From Saprospiraceae bacterium (GTDB taxonomy: Bacteria; Bacteroidota; Bacteroidia; Chitinophagales; Saprospiraceae), in contig JAJTFM010000017.1 in the NCBI GenBank assembly GCA_021298575.1, forward strand, positions 4,725 to 46,569: a DNA stretch of 41,845 nt, written 5' to 3'. This document shows positions 1,976-10,670 of the stretch, one piece after another. Position 1 is the stretch's first letter, and each line of letters opens with the position of its first letter. Made by a program: the position numbers and the translations under genes. A model generated the notes under the pieces. The model saw only the letters and a program-made list of their open reading frames with translations. It made no database searches and was not told the DNA's origin.

Positions 1976-3055
1976 TCAGGCTTTCTGATGATACTGCCGG
2001 TAAGTTCGCACCAGATCAGCACTAATTCCGAAATGAGCAGCTATGGCCTCATCCGAGGCGTTCTGGTTAACGGATAGATAGGAGGAGATATCTAGTGCCA
2101 GTTTAAGGCCTTGTTCTATACCTTGTTCTATACCTTGTTCTATACCTTGTTCTATACCTTGTATGACACCCTTTCTGGCGGCAATGATTACCGCACTGTC
2201 CACGACACTTGCATGTTCCATCACACGGGCAGTGAGTTCTTCAACGGTAACTTCCAGATCACCGCGATACATCTCTACAAACCAGTTGGAGGGGGTTGAT
2301 GAATTGCTTTTGGGCATTCCTGTTGTCATATCCCTGAGTTTTTGGTTAATTATTTTTGAGTGGCCGTTGAGATAAACCAGCGTGGCTCCAGCTACTTCAT
2401 CCCTCTCTGATTTATCCCCAACTTCCGCAAATGTAATTATTTTTTGCCAGTTTTCAAGCATATACTTGTCATCGCGTCCGTGACGCAAGGCTCTTAGAAC
2501 ATTCCATAATATGCCGGGTTTTAAACTGTCTAACCGCTCATCTTCCAATCGTGTTATGTCTATAAACACGTAGTCGAATCTGAATTGAAATGGAACAAGA
2601 TGTGGCGATATACCAGGAAACTGATTCTCTGGAGTTTCCCGCTGTAATGGTAATTGTCCGTGGTATACCACGATAGGAAGTATCACAGAAGGAGGAAGTT
2701 TCTGCCTGGCCTCCCTTAGTCTGATTTGAACGATGTAACTTGCCAGTTGCGTACTCAGTGGAATAGTTGGGGATTCACTCTTGTGCTCAAACAATATCGT
2801 TACCTTCAAATCATTGCCATCTGTCGTTCGTGTTGTGTAACAAACATCCGTGAAGTATGCTTTCAACTGTCGGTCAACAAATGAGTCGCTTGTAAGTTCC
2901 ATATCTTGTAATGCTATCTGATTTAATATGTCTCGGGGAACTCCGAGTTGCATTAAATCGCGGGCGATACTTCTGACATGTAGCACAAATCGAAAATACC
3001 GGTCATGGATATGATGAATGGCGCGCGGGAATCGTTGTTTCTTTTGGAGAGGCAT
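1976..3055 (-). CDS. Rpn family recombination-promoting nuclease (PD-(D/E)XK, YhgA-like)
   Basis: 359-residue protein of the Rpn/YhgA (Transposase_31-like) family, DNA endonucleases that promote RecA-independent recombination. The start has the family pattern HDRYFRFVL, followed by the likely catalytic residues D70 (YFTDVCY) and E90-x-K92 (LFEHKSES), which match a PD-(D/E)XK site. A central region of about 200 residues is followed by four and a half GIEQ units (~residues 298-316) encoded by a 12-bp tandem repeat. A short helical C-terminal tail with a recognisable small HTH-like segment (SDEAIAAHFGISADLVRTY) closes the protein. A good Bacteroidota promoter sits 36 nt upstream. Rpn genes are often multicopy and variable; whether this copy is active is not known. 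Confidence 0.85.
   Translation of the reverse strand: MPLQKKQRFPRAIHHIHDRYFRFVLHVRSIARDLMQLGVPRDILNQIALQDMELTSDSFVDRQLKAYFTDVCYTTRTTDGNDLKVTILFEHKSESPTIPLSTQLASYIVQIRLREARQKLPPSVILPIVVYHGQLPLQRETPENQFPGISPHLVPFQFRFDYVFIDITRLEDERLDSLKPGILWNVLRALRHGRDDKYMLENWQKIITFAEVGDKSERDEVAGATLVYLNGHSKIINQKLRDMTTGMPKSNSSTPSNWFVEMYRGDLEVTVEELTARVMEHASVVDSAVIIAARKGVIQGIEQGIEQGIEQGIEQGLKLALDISSYLSVNQNASDEAIAAHFGISADLVRTYRQYHQKA
2109..2162. repeat. 12-bp in-frame tandem repeat, 4.5 copies, inside the Rpn gene
   Basis: The unit CCTTGTTCTATA (plus strand) is repeated without mismatch at 2109, 2121, 2133 and 2145, followed by a half unit CCTTGT at 2157. On the coding strand each unit encodes Gly-Ile-Glu-Gln. Gain or loss of units by slippage would lengthen or shorten the protein by four residues without changing frame. 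Confidence 0.97.
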
Positions 3056-3090
3056 TGGTGGTTTTTTGACGTGTACTGGTATTGATTATT

Positions 3091-3122
3091 CAAAGTTAAC
3101 ATATTTTACTGGTAAATGCAAA
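3091..3122 (-). promoter_or_regulatory. Bacteroidota-type promoter of the Rpn gene
   Basis: On the minus strand TTTG (3122-3119) is followed after exactly 20 nt by TAACTTTG (3098-3091). This matches the -33 TTTG / -7 TAnnTTTG consensus of the Bacteroidota primary sigma factor. The -7 box ends 36 nt before the ATG. Confidence 0.6.
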
Positions 3123-3164
3123 TTGAATTTGTGATTTTACCGGTTCCCGAATGCACCGCTTCAC

Positions 3165-3172
3165 TATCTTCG
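3165..3172 (+). promoter_or_regulatory. Possible -7 box for the cytidylate-kinase-like gene
   Basis: TATCTTCG lies 21 nt upstream of the ATG and is a one-mismatch variant of TAnnTTTG. I see no clear -33 element, so this is a weak call. It would be divergent from the Rpn promoter in the same 138-nt gap. Confidence 0.3.
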
Positions 3173-3193
3173 CAGCCCTAAAAGTAACACACT

Positions 3194-3745
3194 ATGTCCC
3201 TGGCTTCAGACACAAAAATCACCCTTACAGGCGATCTCGGCAGCGGAAAAAGCGCTGTTTCCTCTATTCTCTGTGAAATAACAGGGTTCGAATATCTGTC
3301 AACGGGCCGTATTCAGCGAAAAATAGCGGAAAATATGGGCATGGATACGCTCGAACTGAACCGCCTGGCTGATACTGACCCCAGTATTGACGAGCGAATT
3401 GACAGTGTTTTTATCTCGCTGGCCAACGACCCCAAAGGATATGTAGTGGATAGCCGAATGGCATGGTTCTTCATCCCGCGCTCATTCAAAGTGTATCTGC
3501 AGACAGACGTGCGCGTGGCCGCACAGCGAATTATGAATGATCCTGACCGGAACCGCGAGCAATATGCCAGCGAGGAGGAGGCTGTTGAAAAAATTCTGGC
3601 CAGAAAGTCCAGCGAGAATGCCCGGTTTCTAAACAAATACGGCGCTGATTGCGCCGATTTGAATAATTTTGGCCTGGTTATTGATACCACCAGCCGTACC
3701 CGTGAGGAGGTGGCTGAATTGATTCTGCGGGCCGCTGGTGCCTGA
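3194..3745 (+). CDS. Cytidylate-kinase-like P-loop nucleotide kinase
   Basis: 183-residue P-loop protein. Walker A is GDLGSGKS (residues 13-20), followed by a short helix and a YLSTGRIQRKIA segment that resembles the NMP-binding part of the compact Cmk2/AAA-type cytidylate kinases. A VVDSRMAWFFIP segment (~residues 83-94) fits the second conserved block of that group, and FKVYLQTDVRVAAQRI with nearby Arg residues suits the LID region. The product could phosphorylate CMP/dCMP or another small substrate; the exact substrate is inference. There is no signal or membrane segment, so it is cytoplasmic. It is transcribed alone, and its TGA directly abuts the stop of the convergent glycosidase gene. 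Confidence 0.7.
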   Translation: MSLASDTKITLTGDLGSGKSAVSSILCEITGFEYLSTGRIQRKIAENMGMDTLELNRLADTDPSIDERIDSVFISLANDPKGYVVDSRMAWFFIPRSFKVYLQTDVRVAAQRIMNDPDRNREQYASEEEAVEKILARKSSENARFLNKYGADCADLNNFGLVIDTTSRTREEVAELILRAAGA

Positions 3746-6010
3746 TCAGCCTTTTGTTACGAGCATCACACGCTCGCCCTTCTCCAGATTGCATTTCCAG
3801 ATTCCGTCCTTCACACCGATGTTGCTCCGTTTGCCCAGGGCATACCAGTCGCCTGGTGGCACAGCAAGTACTAGCTGACCACCATGCTCCGCCATGATTT
3901 TGATGTTTTTGCCATATTCGGCAGACACCAGAAATGCTCCCTCCGATCGCAGGTTCCTAAAGGACACACCGCTTCGCCAGTCATCCGGTATCGCAGGAAA
4001 TACCCTGATGATGCCGTTCTGACTCTGAAGCAGCATCTCCAGTACCCCGGCAGCACTGGCAAAGTTACCCTCCAGGGTGAAGGGATCATAGGTGAAGGAG
4101 GAGTACCCCTTGCCCGACTGATCGCCGTTCAGGTGGAATGAATTGGCCGAAACAAATGAAGAAGCAAAAATACGAAGTGCCTCGCGTGCGCCCTCGCCAT
4201 CGCGCGCCCTCGCGCGCAGGTTCGCAAGCCAGGCCCAGGAATATCCGCACCACTGCGATGGACCTACTGAGTCCAGTAATGCCAGTGAACGCCTGATAAC
4301 TGTTCTGTCAGCCTCTTTGTTCCAGTCTATAAGCCCCAATGGATGTATGGCCATCAAGTGTGAAAAATGCCTGTGACTTGTTCTGTAACTCAGTTCCGGT
4401 GCAAACTTGAGTGCGTCATCCGGTTCCAGTGCGTAACCCGGCAGCTCTCTGCTCAGGCCGAGCCATTTTTCCGACTCGTCCGCAAGTCCCTGCTCTTTGG
4501 CCAGTTCGGCAGTTTTCTCAAATACAAAACGGGTGAGCGACAAATCGTAGTTGGTCCAGGTGTCCGTAAACCAGGCACTGATGGAATTGTCGTTGATTTC
4601 AGGTGACGACGACAAAGGGAGTACCCTGATTCCAGCCGAATTTTTACTGGTTACTTCCGACAAGTGGGTGGCTACATCGCGCAGGAATGGCCAGCCGTGT
4701 TGCTGCAGCCAGTCGCGGTCTCGGGAATATTGCCAGTGCTGATAGTAATGCAGTGCGCACCACGCAGTAACTGTCGGTGAACACGAGTATTGTATCCATC
4801 CACCCATTTCAGTGCCATCAAAGGTGGTTACACCGGGTATGTTCAGTCCGGATGTGCCAAAGTATTTACGGGTATATGCTCTGTGGGCCCTGTCGTTTCT
4901 TTCCAGGTGGTTCAGGTAGCTGAGTCCTTCCGGTAAATGATTGGATGTGTATGCCGGCCAGTAGCTCATCTGTGTGTTCAGGTCGTGGTGCAGATCACCT
5001 TTCCAGGGTGGCAGACGGCCGTTATCAGCTGTCCAGACGGCCTGCAAACTGATCATAGGACCGTCTTCACGGGCAGTACACCCGAATTTGTACATGTCCA
5101 GATAATATTCCCGCTCTATCAGCGTATCCGGAATACTAACGGAAGATTTGGCCCAGTATGCTTCCCACCACGCTGCAGAGGCCTGACGTGAAGCTTCAAA
5201 GCCACGCTCAATGGCTTTTTTAACCAGTTTTTCTGCTTTTACTTGCCCTTTTTGCCCTGGCAGCTGGCTTGAAATACTCCAGACTCCCTCGAAATCTCTG
5301 TTTGTCAACTGTTTTACTGCCACAGCTATTTCATAGTTGAATTCTCCCCAGCCCGCCTGCCGGTATGTCCATATCCCTTTTTTCATCACAGGCACCCCCT
5401 GCGTGTAGCCCAGCCTCGCCAGATCGCTTCCCTGTACGGAATTGGCATTGTCTGCTTCTTTGGGTGCCCCGTATTGTGGTGCCAGTAACCGCATAATCTC
5501 TTCGGGGTTACCGAACCCGTAGCATCTGAACCAGCCTTCCTGCGCGCCTGCGTGCACGAAGGTCTCCAGCGTTTTGCCATCAGTCCAGCGGATGGTAGCC
5601 AGCCCATTCTCAATGTTGAGAGTGATTCCGTTTTTCTGTAACGGCCCTTTAACACTGAACTCCAGTGCTCCCCCGGGCAACTTGGTGGGCCCTGCTTCTC
5701 TCTCGTAAGGTGCGTCGAAGTATTCCTGTACAACGCCATATTCCCCTTTCTTTACCTGCTCCGCAACCCATTTATAGCTGAATTCAGACCGGTCAAGTCC
5801 TTTCATGGGGCGCAGATCCCACAGGTCGGCACGATCAAGAGCCAGCCGCAGTCGACCTTCTTTCTGCCATACCAGACAGCCGATGGTTCCATTGCCCATT
5901 GGCAGACCCTCGTTCCATTTCTGAGGAACATGGTCAAAAACGAGGTTGTGCCCCGGGTCGGGTTGGGCCGATAGTACAGCCGGAAGCAGAATAGCCAGCA
6001 GAAATCTCAT
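3746..6010 (-). CDS. GH95-like glycoside hydrolase (alpha-L-fucosidase superfamily, altered catalytic positions)
   Basis: 754 residues starting with a signal peptide (MRFLLAILLPAVLSAQ). The N-terminal domain carries the GH95 hallmark WNEGLPMGNGTIGCLVW, followed by LALDRADLWDLRP. The (alpha/alpha)6 barrel shows HHDLNTQMSYWPAY, LPLSSSPEINDN, HRHFSHLMAIHPLG and TLEGNFASAAGVLEMLLQSQ. By analogy with Bifidobacterium AfcA, E471 in SPE is the general acid and N345 is retained. The first Asn of the N-x-N pair is D343, and the catalytic-base Asp of the usual I-D-G-N-F motif is E647. The enzyme probably acts on a fucose/galactose-type alpha-linkage in the periplasm, but activity may differ. It is the last gene of a minus-strand run, 36 nt behind the AAA+-like gene. 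Confidence 0.8.
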   Translation of the reverse strand: MRFLLAILLPAVLSAQPDPGHNLVFDHVPQKWNEGLPMGNGTIGCLVWQKEGRLRLALDRADLWDLRPMKGLDRSEFSYKWVAEQVKKGEYGVVQEYFDAPYEREAGPTKLPGGALEFSVKGPLQKNGITLNIENGLATIRWTDGKTLETFVHAGAQEGWFRCYGFGNPEEIMRLLAPQYGAPKEADNANSVQGSDLARLGYTQGVPVMKKGIWTYRQAGWGEFNYEIAVAVKQLTNRDFEGVWSISSQLPGQKGQVKAEKLVKKAIERGFEASRQASAAWWEAYWAKSSVSIPDTLIEREYYLDMYKFGCTAREDGPMISLQAVWTADNGRLPPWKGDLHHDLNTQMSYWPAYTSNHLPEGLSYLNHLERNDRAHRAYTRKYFGTSGLNIPGVTTFDGTEMGGWIQYSCSPTVTAWCALHYYQHWQYSRDRDWLQQHGWPFLRDVATHLSEVTSKNSAGIRVLPLSSSPEINDNSISAWFTDTWTNYDLSLTRFVFEKTAELAKEQGLADESEKWLGLSRELPGYALEPDDALKFAPELSYRTSHRHFSHLMAIHPLGLIDWNKEADRTVIRRSLALLDSVGPSQWCGYSWAWLANLRARARDGEGAREALRIFASSFVSANSFHLNGDQSGKGYSSFTYDPFTLEGNFASAAGVLEMLLQSQNGIIRVFPAIPDDWRSGVSFRNLRSEGAFLVSAEYGKNIKIMAEHGGQLVLAVPPGDWYALGKRSNIGVKDGIWKCNLEKGERVMLVTKG

Positions 6011-6046
6011 GGTATATTGTTGTGTTAATCGGTATCACCCGACAGG

Positions 6047-7714
6047 CTATTTTCCTGGCCGGTCAGATGAGTATGCTTTTTCAACGTTTTCATTGAATTG
6101 TTCGTAGGTTTCAGCCGGAATCTTGTGCCTGATAGACTGCAGGAACTGCCTTAGTTTGAGGTATTCACTCTCGTTCAGCACGCCGTCCTCCATAAAGGCC
6201 TCAAAAAGTTCGGAGAAGTTCTCGCTGACATTCCTCGCAAACTCAATCCGTTTAACTTTGTCTTCAACGAATGCCATGAAGTAAAGGCCTTCGGTATAGC
6301 CCAGTTTGCGCTTCAACACCAGATTATCCACTTCCTCCTTGATGTTTACAAGCCGGCGGGCAGCTACATCGGCGCTGATTTGCTGCTCTTCAAATTTCTG
6401 AAATACCTGTTTGGCTTTTTCCCCGTAGCGCCTGATCAGTAATTCTCTGCGCCTGTAAACCAGATATCCCACGAAGGCCGTGAGCAACGCTGTCGCAGCA
6501 ACCATGGTAATTTCCACCAGATAGCCCGTGTCCTGAAGAAACTGTACCTGCCTTGCCAGGAAACTTGTACGGGGCATCAGGCCATTTTCTCTTATGGTAT
6601 ATTCAATATCGTCAAAGTCGCTCATTCTGAGCTGTTTATCAGGCTTTAACGCGTTCAGGTGACTGATTACGGTCTGTTTCATCTTAACCCGATCGTCGGG
6701 ATGGTAGCAGGCCCGAAGGTTTGTCCCTTGACCCATCTGGAAGCCGATGCCGAATCGGTCCTTCAGCAGTTCATTGATGCGAATAAAGTAAAAAACAAAG
6801 GCTCTTTTATTCTCCCTGATGTTGAGTGCCTTTGATTTCGTCGAGTCGAGTACACCGTTTTTGTATTGCCACTCAAGAACAGCTATCAGCTCTCGCGGAT
6901 TGGGCTCGAGTACGTACTGATTGCCCAGCCGCTTGAAGTGCTCTTCATTAAATTCTATTTTTGAGCCCGGACCCAGATGCGTGACTGAAATCAGATGGAA
7001 ATTATCCGGCATTGTGTAGCGTACACCGTCTGTCTCCATTTCAACGAGTCGTGAACTGAGTGCCTCCCATAGTGTTGCCCCAAAGAAGGTTTCAGGGTTT
7101 ATTTTGTCGAAATTATCCACTACAGCCACGTAACGTCGCTCCGGATGCTGCCGGCATTTTTCCCAGAATTCAAGCAGCTCTCCCGCCACAAAATGATCTT
7201 GTTCATCCTCCGACCCGATGTACTTTTTATGGTACTCCATATCGAATCCCGGAGCGCAGTCAATGGACAAAACTCGTTCCGAACTTCCTGCTATCAGATT
7301 CGCAGCCCTTTTGGCCTGTTTCGTTGCTCCCGTACCCGTTACCCCGGAAATTACTATGCGCTGGCTCTTCCGGGCTGCCAGGGTGAGATCTCTGAATGCC
7401 TTCCACTCAATATTGGCCGGAGCCGGCTGATTAACCAGATGCAAGCCCGTAGTGTCTCCCGGGCGATATGCTATCTGATGGAGCTGACAGTACAACCATT
7501 GCAGCGAATCGGGTACATCCGCTATAAGCCGGGTATCATCCTGTAACAGTAATCCACCCCTGATCCATAAGGGATCCTGCTGGTCCCGTGTTCCAAACCA
7601 CAAAAAAGCCACCGCTACCGGAAACAGTAGCAGCCACGAGTATCTGTATGAAAAGCGGGGAGCCAACCTGTCTTTTTTGGATATATATTGATAAAAATCA
7701 ATTTTTTGACCCAA
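6047..7714 (-). CDS. Two-TM membrane protein with degenerate McrB/MoxR-like AAA+ module
   Basis: 555 residues, with a TTG start that overlaps the upstream gene by 17 nt; a stop two codons before it makes this the only early start. TM1 spans residues 25-41 and TM2 about 397-420. Between them lies an AAA+ fold readable block by block. The P-loop is GVTGTGATK (124-132), with Ala at the Walker A Lys. Walker B is VAVVDNFDK, with D200-N201 in place of D-E. A sensor-1-like PDNFHLISVTH and a GLMPRTSF segment resembling GLSPR of McrB/MoxR relatives follow. Flanking positive charges (KK, R residues before TM1; RRRELLIRR after TM2) predict that this module faces the periplasm. The C-terminal ~130 residues are charged, helical and cytoplasmic. 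The function is unknown; ATPase activity is probably lost. Confidence 0.6.
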   Translation of the reverse strand: MGQKIDFYQYISKKDRLAPRFSYRYSWLLLFPVAVAFLWFGTRDQQDPLWIRGGLLLQDDTRLIADVPDSLQWLYCQLHQIAYRPGDTTGLHLVNQPAPANIEWKAFRDLTLAARKSQRIVISGVTGTGATKQAKRAANLIAGSSERVLSIDCAPGFDMEYHKKYIGSEDEQDHFVAGELLEFWEKCRQHPERRYVAVVDNFDKINPETFFGATLWEALSSRLVEMETDGVRYTMPDNFHLISVTHLGPGSKIEFNEEHFKRLGNQYVLEPNPRELIAVLEWQYKNGVLDSTKSKALNIRENKRAFVFYFIRINELLKDRFGIGFQMGQGTNLRACYHPDDRVKMKQTVISHLNALKPDKQLRMSDFDDIEYTIRENGLMPRTSFLARQVQFLQDTGYLVEITMVAATALLTAFVGYLVYRRRELLIRRYGEKAKQVFQKFEEQQISADVAARRLVNIKEEVDNLVLKRKLGYTEGLYFMAFVEDKVKRIEFARNVSENFSELFEAFMEDGVLNESEYLKLRQFLQSIRHKIPAETYEQFNENVEKAYSSDRPGK

Positions 7715-9392
7715 GTATCAGCCTGACTGGGGTCTCACTGTGCCCGTCGGTGCTCAAACGGCAGAAGTAAACGCCTGCCGGAAGACGCTGTCCGGCATCG
7801 TCGCGACCATCCCAGCGCAATTGCTGTACTCCTTCGCTCTGCTGCTGATCAGCCAGCATACGCATCAGGCGCCCCGTACGGTCGTACACCTGTGCGCGTA
7901 CGCGTGCGTCGGAGGAAAGATAGTACCTCAGGACTGTCTCTTCGGAAAATGGATTGGGAGTGGCAGACAGAACGCTGATTTCGCGGGGGATATCTTTTGC
8001 AGCTGAGGTTGCCACGGTTATCCGGCTGAAGTAAACATCCTGTCCGCCAGTGAATGTGGCTGCCCAGGCAAGACTGGCTCCTTCGTTGTCGGAAATCATG
8101 TGAAAGTAGTCACCCATTTTCTGTTGTATCGGCCATCCGGCATGTGGATCGAAGGACTGCGACATGCGCTGATTGGGTGCCCAGGTCTCTCCCCCGTCGG
8201 TTGAGTAGGAGTAGTAAAGCGAAGACAGTACTGTTCCGGGATTATCGCGGGTGTCGAGCCAGGCTACATCAATACGGCCGTTCGGTGCTACCGACATGGC
8301 TGCCATCCATTGCCAGGCTGGTGCGCCATTGTCATCATTAATTCGGAGTGGTGTACTCCATGTATTTCCGTTGTCAGTGCTTCTTATAAACATGATTTCT
8401 GCCGGATCAGACTCATCGGCTGGTATCACGGGCTGTACCTGATATATCTGTCCGAAAAGCGGGCCGGGGGCGTGGTTAACGGCAATCCAGTTCTGACCTT
8501 TCAAGCCAGCTGGATTGGGGTCCTGGCCTTGCCACTGGCCGGGGATGTAACCGCCGATATTAACCGGTATGGCGGTGGGCTCCCACTCAGTGGCTTCATT
8601 TTCATTTTCTGCATTCGATGAGCGGGCAAATGATCCGTCTGCTCCCGAAACATACAGCGTGCCGTCAGGGGCTACAGCGCAGGTGCCCCAGTAAACTTCC
8701 GGAGAAATACGGTTGCAGGCTTCATACGTGTCTCCTTCATCGGTTGATCTTGTGAAGTTGTTATCCGGACAGGCGGAGTAGTAGGATGTCCAGTGCTCAT
8801 AAATATTCCCTCTGCCGGGACCGTCTGTCTGATCTATAACCATCCACTGCTTGTCGCCTCCGATGGCATACGGCCCGTCGTCCCAGGTGCCGAGCCCTGT
8901 GGAACGGTACACATTGCAGCTGAACTCGTCGTTATTGTCCAGCGTAAGGCTGTTATAGTAAAACCGGCCTTCCGCATCGGTTGCCAGTACCGGATCAGAC
9001 CTGAATACGCCCGGGTTTATTGACCCCGGAAACGTCCAGTGCATGCCACTATCGGTACTGTAGGCATACCCTGCCTGACGAAAACTGCTCTGAATGTTGT
9101 CAAACTGTCTCCAGCCTATCATCATCTTGTTGGGTTCTACCGGACTGATGGCAATTGACGGCTCATTGGCGGCATCATTCAGGATATTTTGGCCGCTGGC
9201 GTTTACATTTACCTGAACGGTCCAGATGCTGGCGCCTGAATAATTGTACGCCGGAGAAACGGGCTGATTTTCAGGAGAGGCTGGCGGCAGGTACGGATCG
9301 GTGGGTATCTCCAGATGTTGCTGAGCGCGGGCTGTTTGTACAGAAACTGCCAGAAGCAGCAGGAATTGTCCTATTATTTTGATGTGATGCAT
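7698..9392 (-). CDS. T9SS-secreted Asp-box (BNR/sialidase-like propeller) protein
   Basis: I place the start at the Met that begins a typical signal peptide (MHHIKIIGQFLLLLAVSVQT, cleavage near ARA-QQ); upstream Met codons would add an implausible cytoplasmic leader. The mature part has at least four Asp-box motifs of the S-x-D-x-G-x-x-W type (YSTDSGMHWTF, RSTDEGDTYEA, RSTDNGNTWST, YSTDGGETWAP), as in sialidase-like beta-propellers. The catalytic Arg triad of true sialidases is not obvious, so this is not called a sialidase. The last ~85 residues are a T9SS type A/FlgD-like sorting domain (ATPNPFSEETVLRYYL, YDRTGRLMRML, LPAGVYFCRL). It is cotranscribed with the AAA+-like gene, whose start overlaps its stop. 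Confidence 0.82.
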   Translation of the reverse strand: MHHIKIIGQFLLLLAVSVQTARAQQHLEIPTDPYLPPASPENQPVSPAYNYSGASIWTVQVNVNASGQNILNDAANEPSIAISPVEPNKMMIGWRQFDNIQSSFRQAGYAYSTDSGMHWTFPGSINPGVFRSDPVLATDAEGRFYYNSLTLDNNDEFSCNVYRSTGLGTWDDGPYAIGGDKQWMVIDQTDGPGRGNIYEHWTSYYSACPDNNFTRSTDEGDTYEACNRISPEVYWGTCAVAPDGTLYVSGADGSFARSSNAENENEATEWEPTAIPVNIGGYIPGQWQGQDPNPAGLKGQNWIAVNHAPGPLFGQIYQVQPVIPADESDPAEIMFIRSTDNGNTWSTPLRINDDNGAPAWQWMAAMSVAPNGRIDVAWLDTRDNPGTVLSSLYYSYSTDGGETWAPNQRMSQSFDPHAGWPIQQKMGDYFHMISDNEGASLAWAATFTGGQDVYFSRITVATSAAKDIPREISVLSATPNPFSEETVLRYYLSSDARVRAQVYDRTGRLMRMLADQQQSEGVQQLRWDGRDDAGQRLPAGVYFCRLSTDGHSETPVRLILGSKN

Positions 9393-9417
9393 CGGAAACC
9401 GGATTTTTATGAAGTGG

Positions 9418-9425
9418 CAAAGGTA
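9418..9425 (-). promoter_or_regulatory. Possible -7 box upstream of the Asp-box gene
   Basis: Read on the minus strand, TACCTTTG matches TAnnTTTG and lies 25 nt before the chosen start, in the 93-nt gap after moeA. A convincing -33 element at 19-21 nt was not found. If used, it separates the secreted-protein genes from the moeA transcription unit. Confidence 0.35.
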
Positions 9426-9485
9426 TATAACCGCTTCCTCAATCACGCCAGTCATGCCTGTTTTGCATGATATAATCATTTAATA

Positions 9486-10670
9486 TCAGATGCGCCAGAA
9501 GGAAAATAGTGTTCCGGCCTCAAACCGGGATTTTTCCGCAGGTAATTCGATGAAGCCATCGGCGTTCAGCAGACTGGAATAATCACCCGAGCCCTGGTGC
9601 CGGATCGGAACGGCTCTGAGCAGTCCTGTATCGTCGGTCCGGATTGTTACCTGGCTAAACAGGGTAAGGTTGGGTTCAAAGATAATATCTTCTGCCAGCA
9701 CTGCCTTGCGGGCCGATACAGGTTGGCCCAAAGATGCCTCAATCCATGGTTTGACATATCTAGCCATGCAGGCCATGGTCGAAACCGGATTGCCGGGCAA
9801 GGCAAAGATGGTTGCCTGCCCCCTTTTGCCAAACCAGAATGGTTTTCCCGGTCTCTGCCTGACCCCCCTGATCAGTTTGTTTACCCCAAGGTCTGTGAGA
9901 GCATCCGGTATGTAGTCAAATTTTCCCGCCGAGATACCGCCACTGATGATAATTGCATCATACGTCTCCAGAGCATCACGCAGGGCTTCTCTTATCTGCT
10001 CCGGATCGTCGGGCAGGTGAAACAATCCGGCCTCAATACCGTAAGACCGGAGGATTGCATGGCATACGTAACTGTTGGATCGTCTGATCTGAAAGGGCTG
10101 CGGGGTTTCGTGTACATCAACCAGTTCGTTGCCTGATGAAAATACTGCCACCCGTGGTGGTTTTATCACCCTTATATGATGACAACCAACCGAGGCTGCG
10201 ATACTTGTTTCAACCGGACCAATCAACCGGCCAGCCTGCATCAGAACGTCACCAACCCTGCGGTCTTTGCCTTTCAGGTGAATATTCTGACCAGACTTTA
10301 CTTCTCCGTTCAGTAATGCAATTCCTCCGTCAGTATGTATCTGCTCGTAAGGGATTACCGTGTCAACGAAAGGAGGGAGAGAGGCACCGGTCATAATTTC
10401 CACACACGTGCCCGAAGGTATGTGTGTCATAACGTCCTCGCCTGCGCCAATGACACCGGAAATGGGGAAAGATCTGATACCAGATTGATAATCAGCATAT
10501 TGAATTGCAATTCCATCCATTGAAACCCGGTTGTATGGAGGGATATCGCGGTCAGCATGCACGTCCTGTGCAAGTACGCGCCCCTGCGCCTGCAGGAGCG
10601 GTATATATTCTGTCTCTGGAGTGAACAGGTGGCTTCTTACGGTCTCCCAGGCTTCAGTTACAGTCATCAT
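9486..10670 (-). CDS. moeA: Molybdopterin molybdenumtransferase MoeA
   Basis: 394 residues. MoeA inserts molybdate into adenylylated molybdopterin, the last common step of molybdenum cofactor synthesis. Conserved blocks are in order: PYNRVSMDGIAI near residue 45; EIMTGASLPPFVDTVIPYE in domain III; the MPT-binding-fold motif IISGGISAGKFDYIPDAL, where most MoeA proteins have SGGVSxGxxD; and FALPGNPVSTMACM. Length and order are those of a complete MoeA. No other moa/moe/mob gene or molybdoenzyme lies in the window, so its pathway partners are elsewhere. It starts 2 nt after the stop of the helicase gene and is almost certainly cotranscribed with it. Confidence 0.93.
   Translation of the reverse strand: MMTVTEAWETVRSHLFTPETEYIPLLQAQGRVLAQDVHADRDIPPYNRVSMDGIAIQYADYQSGIRSFPISGVIGAGEDVMTHIPSGTCVEIMTGASLPPFVDTVIPYEQIHTDGGIALLNGEVKSGQNIHLKGKDRRVGDVLMQAGRLIGPVETSIAASVGCHHIRVIKPPRVAVFSSGNELVDVHETPQPFQIRRSNSYVCHAILRSYGIEAGLFHLPDDPEQIREALRDALETYDAIIISGGISAGKFDYIPDALTDLGVNKLIRGVRQRPGKPFWFGKRGQATIFALPGNPVSTMACMARYVKPWIEASLGQPVSARKAVLAEDIIFEPNLTLFSQVTIRTDDTGLLRAVPIRHQGSGDYSSLLNADGFIELPAEKSRFEAGTLFSFWRI

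Follow-up and report, generated by a model that had tools for sequence, protein, structure and literature searches.

Can an AAA+ module leave the cytoplasm, lose its hydrolytic machinery and still be kept in use? AAA+ modules are cytosolic engines, and this question is raised by a minus-strand open reading frame (6047-7714) in the 41,845-nucleotide stretch of Saprospiraceae DNA analyzed here (hereafter the window), which a sequence-only reading took to encode a membrane-anchored AAA+ protein with its module outside. We favor, at a probability of roughly 0.45, an inner-membrane protein with two transmembrane segments (TMs), in which an extracytoplasmic, former McrB-type AAA+ domain without hydrolysis is reused as a receptor or assembly module. 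The finding itself is real, unusual and not an artefact.

The reading frame is present and counts 555 aa from its first TTG (7714). The second TTG, at 7666, is the probable start, since it matches the start position in the relatives, most of whose 28 rows open with TTG (some with GTG or ATG) just ahead of TM1. Residue numbers here run from TTG 7666, so that residue n of the sequence-only reading becomes n-16. The domain order is TM1, AAA+ module, TM2 and a conserved helical bundle:

6047..7666, minus strand: probable coding sequence from the TTG at 7666, 539 aa and a stop codon (relatives' start position, purifying selection)
7589..7648, minus strand: TM1 or signal anchor, residues 7-26 (model helix; TM score in 20 of 29 rows, the window protein not among them)
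7454..7588, minus strand: linker or N-terminal module extension, residues 27-71 (low conservation, with 2 of 45 positions invariant)
6581..7453, minus strand: McrB-type AAA+ module with lid, residues 72-362 (structure match and profile alignment)
7319..7345, minus strand: pseudo-Walker A, GVTGTGATK, residues 108-116 (Ala114 replaces the Lys in the window protein; no Lys there in any of 29 rows)
7103..7129, minus strand: pseudo-Walker B, residues 180-188 (D184-N185, then F-D-K)
6965..6982, minus strand: sensor-1 loop, residues 229-234 (McrB Asn333 replaced by His230, Asp336 by Pro233)
6929..6934, minus strand: K245-R246, aligned with McrB Arg348 and Arg349, which act in trans; arginine finger (unchanged in all 29 rows)
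6455..6523, minus strand: TM2, residues 382-404, ending at RRR (model; TM score in 29 of 29 rows)
6050..6454, minus strand: C-terminal five-helix bundle, residues 405-539, predicted cytoplasmic (structure model, conservation)

The gene is under purifying selection and shows no decay. Among eight close pairs, with dS saturated in many cells, dN/dS was 0.027-0.111 over the AAA region (the five pairs with finite dS), 0.033-0.062 over the C-terminal region (three pairs) and 0.017-0.598 over TM1 (six pairs). Two observations concern the start region. TACCTTCG or TATCTTCG occurs in 12 or more of the relatives' 28 rows (e.g. L017, L021, L024 and L026), about 20-40 bases upstream of the start codon; we take these boxes to resemble the Bacteroidota TAnnTTTG promoter box. 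A terminator-like hairpin (9-10 pairs, then TTTTTT; 7608-7634, minus strand) lies inside the 5' start of the gene, just past the end of the upstream gene at 7698, and may be a chance occurrence.

The AAA+ identity of the module goes beyond chance, and its fold and kinship are solidly of McrB type. When an AlphaFold2 model of the full protein (29 rows; pLDDT 86.5, pTM 0.66) was compared with known structures by VIA-align, McrB chains ranked highest (Z 16.9-19.9; best 6ut6_D, Z 19.9, 262 residues aligned at rmsd 3.7 over model residues 72-355), followed by the YdjA-YdiS model 9a5m (14.7), NorQ/CbbQ, and dynein (about 11-12), and Foldseek also returned McrB as its top matches (E 1.4e-10). MoxR, NorQ and CbbQ chaperones, soluble and active members of the same wider AAA+ group, gave Z 12.2-14.6, below McrB. 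A seven-member family profile aligned by hhalign with 14 TM-free McrB-like proteins at E 9.2e-22 (probability 99.4), the family profile matched McrB at E 5.8e-10, and McrB was the top sequence match in phmmer (E 4.4e-4). No Pfam or NCBIfam model passed its cut-off on the protein; the sub-threshold leads over the whole protein were AAA_22 (E 0.066) and the NCBI McrB model (E 0.0052), the latter matched at E 0.01 or better by 8 of the 29 genus rows. A PADLOC search gave no clear match to a known anti-phage defence protein, only weak matches in the P-loop region (E 1.3e-3 and 4.3e-3 for the window protein, 1.3e-4 and 1.5e-3 for the relative L090). A TM check of 22 AAA hits or relatives found two in L142, a full-length relative; of the others, only L093 and L094 showed a weak stretch, one each, outside the matched region.

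With fold, motif order and a kept Arg finger in common, the protein differs from McrB, the AAA+ GTPase of McrBC, in having two TMs and in lacking the Walker A Lys, the Walker B Glu, the sensor-1 Asn and the loop Asp. The residues that guide this comparison, as named in the McrB structure report (PMC6624300), are Asp279, Glu280, Asn282, Arg283, Asn333, Asp336, Arg348 (a proposed sensor 2) and Arg349 (the finger). Our mapping was taken from the profile alignment, counted from Asn333, and would equate Asp279 with D184 (kept), Glu280 with N185, Asn282 with D187, Arg283 with K188, Asn333 with H230, Asp336 with P233, Arg348 with K245 and Arg349 with R246. In the genus alignment of 29 rows, the Walker A Lys position (114) is occupied by Ala (16), Ser (9), Gly (2) or Thr (2), whereas T115 and K116, the latter two places after the lost Lys, are invariant, as are D184, N185, D187 and K188 of Walker B, H230 and P233 of sensor 1, and the pair K245-R246. 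Thus, the Walker A Lys and sensor-1 Asn of an active McrB GTPase are missing from all 29 rows, its Walker B Asp-Glu reads Asp-Asn in each, and its trans arginine finger is present as R246, with K245 in place of Arg348. In one row (L025) the P-loop reads GVTGTKATK, with a Lys one place ahead of the lost one, in place of Gly. Read from the alignment, the cis catalytic set is gone, and the Mg-type ligands (T115, D184) and the trans Arg are kept.

Much of what the sequence-only reading had proposed for this module is borne out: a McrB/MoxR-type core is there, with McrB the closer of the two both by fold and by profile in the AlphaFold and profile comparison that it had suggested, and the Walker replacements (its Ala130 and D200-N201, here 114 and 184-185) are as it described them. 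Its notion of a degenerate Arg-finger region was wrong, given the invariant K245 and R246. Conservation of the Walker losses across the family holds throughout the genus but breaks down at L090, with its intact Walker A and a D-D Walker B, so that one of the refuting observations named in that reading is in part borne out.

The altered Walker positions are more conserved than the protein as a whole (14 of 22 invariant vs 104 of 539; p 3.7e-6, nominal as the rows are related), and so is the finger segment (6 of 8, p 9e-4), whereas the sensor-1 loop (4 of 9, p 0.075) shows no significant enrichment and the entire AAA+ module none (49 of 291, p 0.95). Together with the purifying selection, this above-average conservation marks the protein as a functional pseudoenzyme. 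The most conserved long parts are TM2 (region 380-404, 12 of 25 invariant, nominal p 8e-4) and the C-terminal bundle (40 of 131, nominal p 2e-4), which would suit an output part.

How the motifs came to be altered can be approached through the relatives. A protein search of 100 genomes found the protein in 31, all belonging to one genus: 31 of its 42 genomes had a match, and none of the remaining 58 did. Named genomes, when scanned, yielded 31 loci, every one from a MAG labelled as Bacteroidota/Bacteroidetes, Saprospiraceae, Saprospirales, Chitinophagales or Lewinellaceae. Three full-length relatives lie outside the genus. L142 belongs to a different genus within the family, L087 to a Saprospiraceae MAG, and L090, found in a scan of 395 genomes, to another family of the phylum. 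The MAG of L087 is probably the second genome of L142's genus (L179), judging solely by its 581-aa open frame. A class-wide search of 395 genomes gave no further full-length relative among the matches listed; apart from the query's own genome, its 150 matching genomes gave partial AAA-region matches, which, among those listed, fall mostly in ClpB-looking frames some 860 aa long and in a few McrB-like ones. Among 146 relatives of L090's genome, a full-length copy occurs only in L090's own, and one other genome gave a match of 67 residues. The scans that found L142 and L090 and the class-wide search scored at most three candidates per genome, and absence from them is not strict.

L090 is 24% identical, has the same layout, and carries an intact Walker A (GVSGSGKTT), a D-D Walker B, both finger arginines (Arg348 and Arg349 positions) and RRR. 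L142 has GVSGVGNTT with D-D, L087 has GVTGAGNST with D-N, and the focal genus has GVTGxG(A/S/G/T)TK, L025 apart, with D-N. As L090 shares the layout and keeps Walker A, the loss reads as specific to the Saprospiraceae branch and not as a property of the whole family. In the tree, L087 and L142 adjoin the genus; L090 sits on a very long branch, its placement unsure, and the root is a midpoint only, so the direction of change along the series is itself conjectural. A mobile or phage origin was rejected, as a family member found no relative in viral_contigs, L090 found none among phages, and its search of plasmids gave a single generic AAA match covering 27% of its length.

The location of the module is probably extracytoplasmic (periplasmic), a prediction drawn from sequence through the positive-inside rule. 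With a 19-residue Kyte-Doolittle window and a threshold of 1.3, TM2 exceeds the threshold in all 29 rows and TM1 in 20; TM1 is short, L033 lacks the region, and L035 and L038 start inside it. Mean K+R and D+E counts over the 29 rows, with missing stretches counted as zero, are 1.2 and 0 before TM1, 1.6 and 2.3 after it, 1.3 and 1.5 before TM2, and 5.4 and 2.0 in the 15 residues after TM2, and the signal comes mainly from an RRRxxxIR-type run behind TM2. The patterns of L090, L087 and L142 read alike by eye, and the probable topology for the genus and these three relatives would be N-in, module out, C-in; cleavage of TM1 as a signal would leave the module outside all the same. Of the earlier proposal that two TMs and the positive-inside rule place the module outside, the charge pattern and TM2 stand, but TM1 is found in 20 of 29 rows. 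A histidine-kinase control for the charge rule yielded ORFs from 4 of 14 HisKA loci; the three with two TMs carry 5, 2 and 2 K+R behind the last one, a sample too small to calibrate the rule. A possible C137/C171 disulfide was set aside because a Cys at position 171 is also found in several McrB-like proteins.

The bundle gives few leads of its own. Its model is confident (pLDDT 93 for 131 of 135 residues), but sequence, profile and fold searches found no signalling family and no sequence relatives outside the protein family: the bundle profile recovered only the gene itself in 198 genomes of the order and matched the PDB at E 0.095 or worse, and fold matches reached Z 9.9 at most, scores that call for caution with helical bundles. 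A shared output domain was rejected on these grounds, and CARD/DED matches at the C-terminus, which failed the cut-off at E 0.0035 and 0.077, were taken as chance. The charge pattern agrees with a two-TM receptor layout (N-in, sensor out, C-in), although TM1 is weak and the bundle is without a known output family. A likeness of the protein to TAXI solute-binding proteins, which we had presumed, was dropped, with PF16868 in 0 of 37 genus genomes and in 1 of 60 searched.

Gene neighbourhoods were compared in 30 regions representing 25 distinct contigs (five duplicated; several regions end at contig ends). The most widespread neighbour occurs in 8 of the 30 regions and 6 of the 25 contigs, and operon logic was therefore rejected, leaving no operon to name a pathway. 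A Pfam scan of five flanking window proteins (1979-10670) found no McrC-type gene. One neighbour (1976-3055, minus strand) is a YhgA-like putative transposase or Rpn-type nuclease (PF04754, over its cut-off) with a repeated GIEQ stretch near the C-terminus. In the genomes of L142 (L177:7195-8958) and L090 (L107:8635-10299), the gene is on the strand opposite to nearby nuo genes, two genes away from a nuoA-F run and one, an M16 peptidase, from nuoG-H-I; this may be a lead or a coincidence (NuoA, NuoB, NuoG and M16 named by Pfam, the other nuo genes by eye). A tblastn search found no nuo genes in the genus neighbourhoods covered or beside L087.

Could the fold serve purely as structure, a ligand-free assembly domain joining a periplasmic complex to a cytosolic partner? 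The loss of Lys, Glu and sensor-1 Asn from every row and the lack of a conserved neighbour giving a pathway would fit, but T115, K116, D184, N185 and H230 of the pocket are invariant in a module much of which varies, which suggests that the site remains in contact with something, and we consider the purely structural role unlikely. About equally unlikely, in our estimate, is a cytoplasmic module (N-out and C-out, or TM1 not inserted) in a nucleotide-binding, slow or non-hydrolysing membrane AAA+ protein. McrB relatives are cytoplasmic, TM1 is weak in several members, and L090 keeps GVSGSGKTT together with RRR; that a domain predicted to lie outside should keep its Walker A intact is odd and the weak point of our topology reading, as either the family was outside before the Lys was lost or the topology prediction fails for all members. 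However, with both TMs inserted, a cytoplasmic module would leave RRR(E)xxIRR and about 130 residues outside, against the mean of 5.4 K+R behind TM2.

Kept Arg and lost cis residues invite another comparison. LAP1 and LULL1, the torsin activators, differ from our protein in being eukaryotic, of non-McrB type and with one TM. Their luminal domains are described (PMC4358337) as a membrane-anchored AAA+ fold outside the cytosol that lacks canonical nucleotide motifs and has a conserved finger Arg, and our protein would share all of this, its motif pattern fitting in 29 of 29 rows and its extracytosolic site resting on the charge pattern. LAP1 is the nearest precedent known to us. By the same analogy, the module could be an AAA+-fold domain without nucleotide binding that contributes its Arg in trans within a mixed ring shared with an active AAA+ partner, since the cis residues are gone, the Arg349 equivalent is invariant, and the perinuclear domain of LAP1 has the same pattern (PMC4358337). 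However, the gene has no linked active AAA+ partner, and the invariant Arg could merely hold a homomeric interface. We know of no active AAA+ partner in the periplasm, and regard such an activator as improbable, clearly more so than either alternative above.

In the receptor or assembly reading that we prefer, the module keeps its fold, P-loop backbone, the Mg-site-type T115 and D184, K116 and the trans Lys-Arg pair; it would most likely self-assemble and engage a ligand or partner at its former active site, with no hydrolysis, and its state could pass through TM2 to the conserved cytosolic helical bundle, as a sensor or a scaffold. A bolder version, that a McrB-type domain moved to the outer face of the inner membrane and became, stepwise (L090, K and D-D; L142, N and D-D; L087, N and D-N; the genus, A/S/G/T and D-N), a ring receptor that does not hydrolyse and is coupled to a new helical output domain in the cytosol, a bacterial counterpart of the LAP1 type, is a doubtful though conceivable extension. 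FtsH and other membrane AAA+ proteases likewise join an AAA+ module to two TMs in a single polypeptide, but in FtsH the active module lies behind TM2, in the cytoplasm, with a protease domain. Our literature search, in which subscription journals were mostly outside coverage, found no bacterial extracytoplasmic AAA+ protein. The Walker series (K/D-D, N/D-D, N/D-N, A/D-N) supplies testable intermediates, and if the preferred reading is true, an engine fold that has kept its trans Arg and dropped hydrolysis outside the cytoplasm would show how such a module can be turned into a receptor or scaffold.
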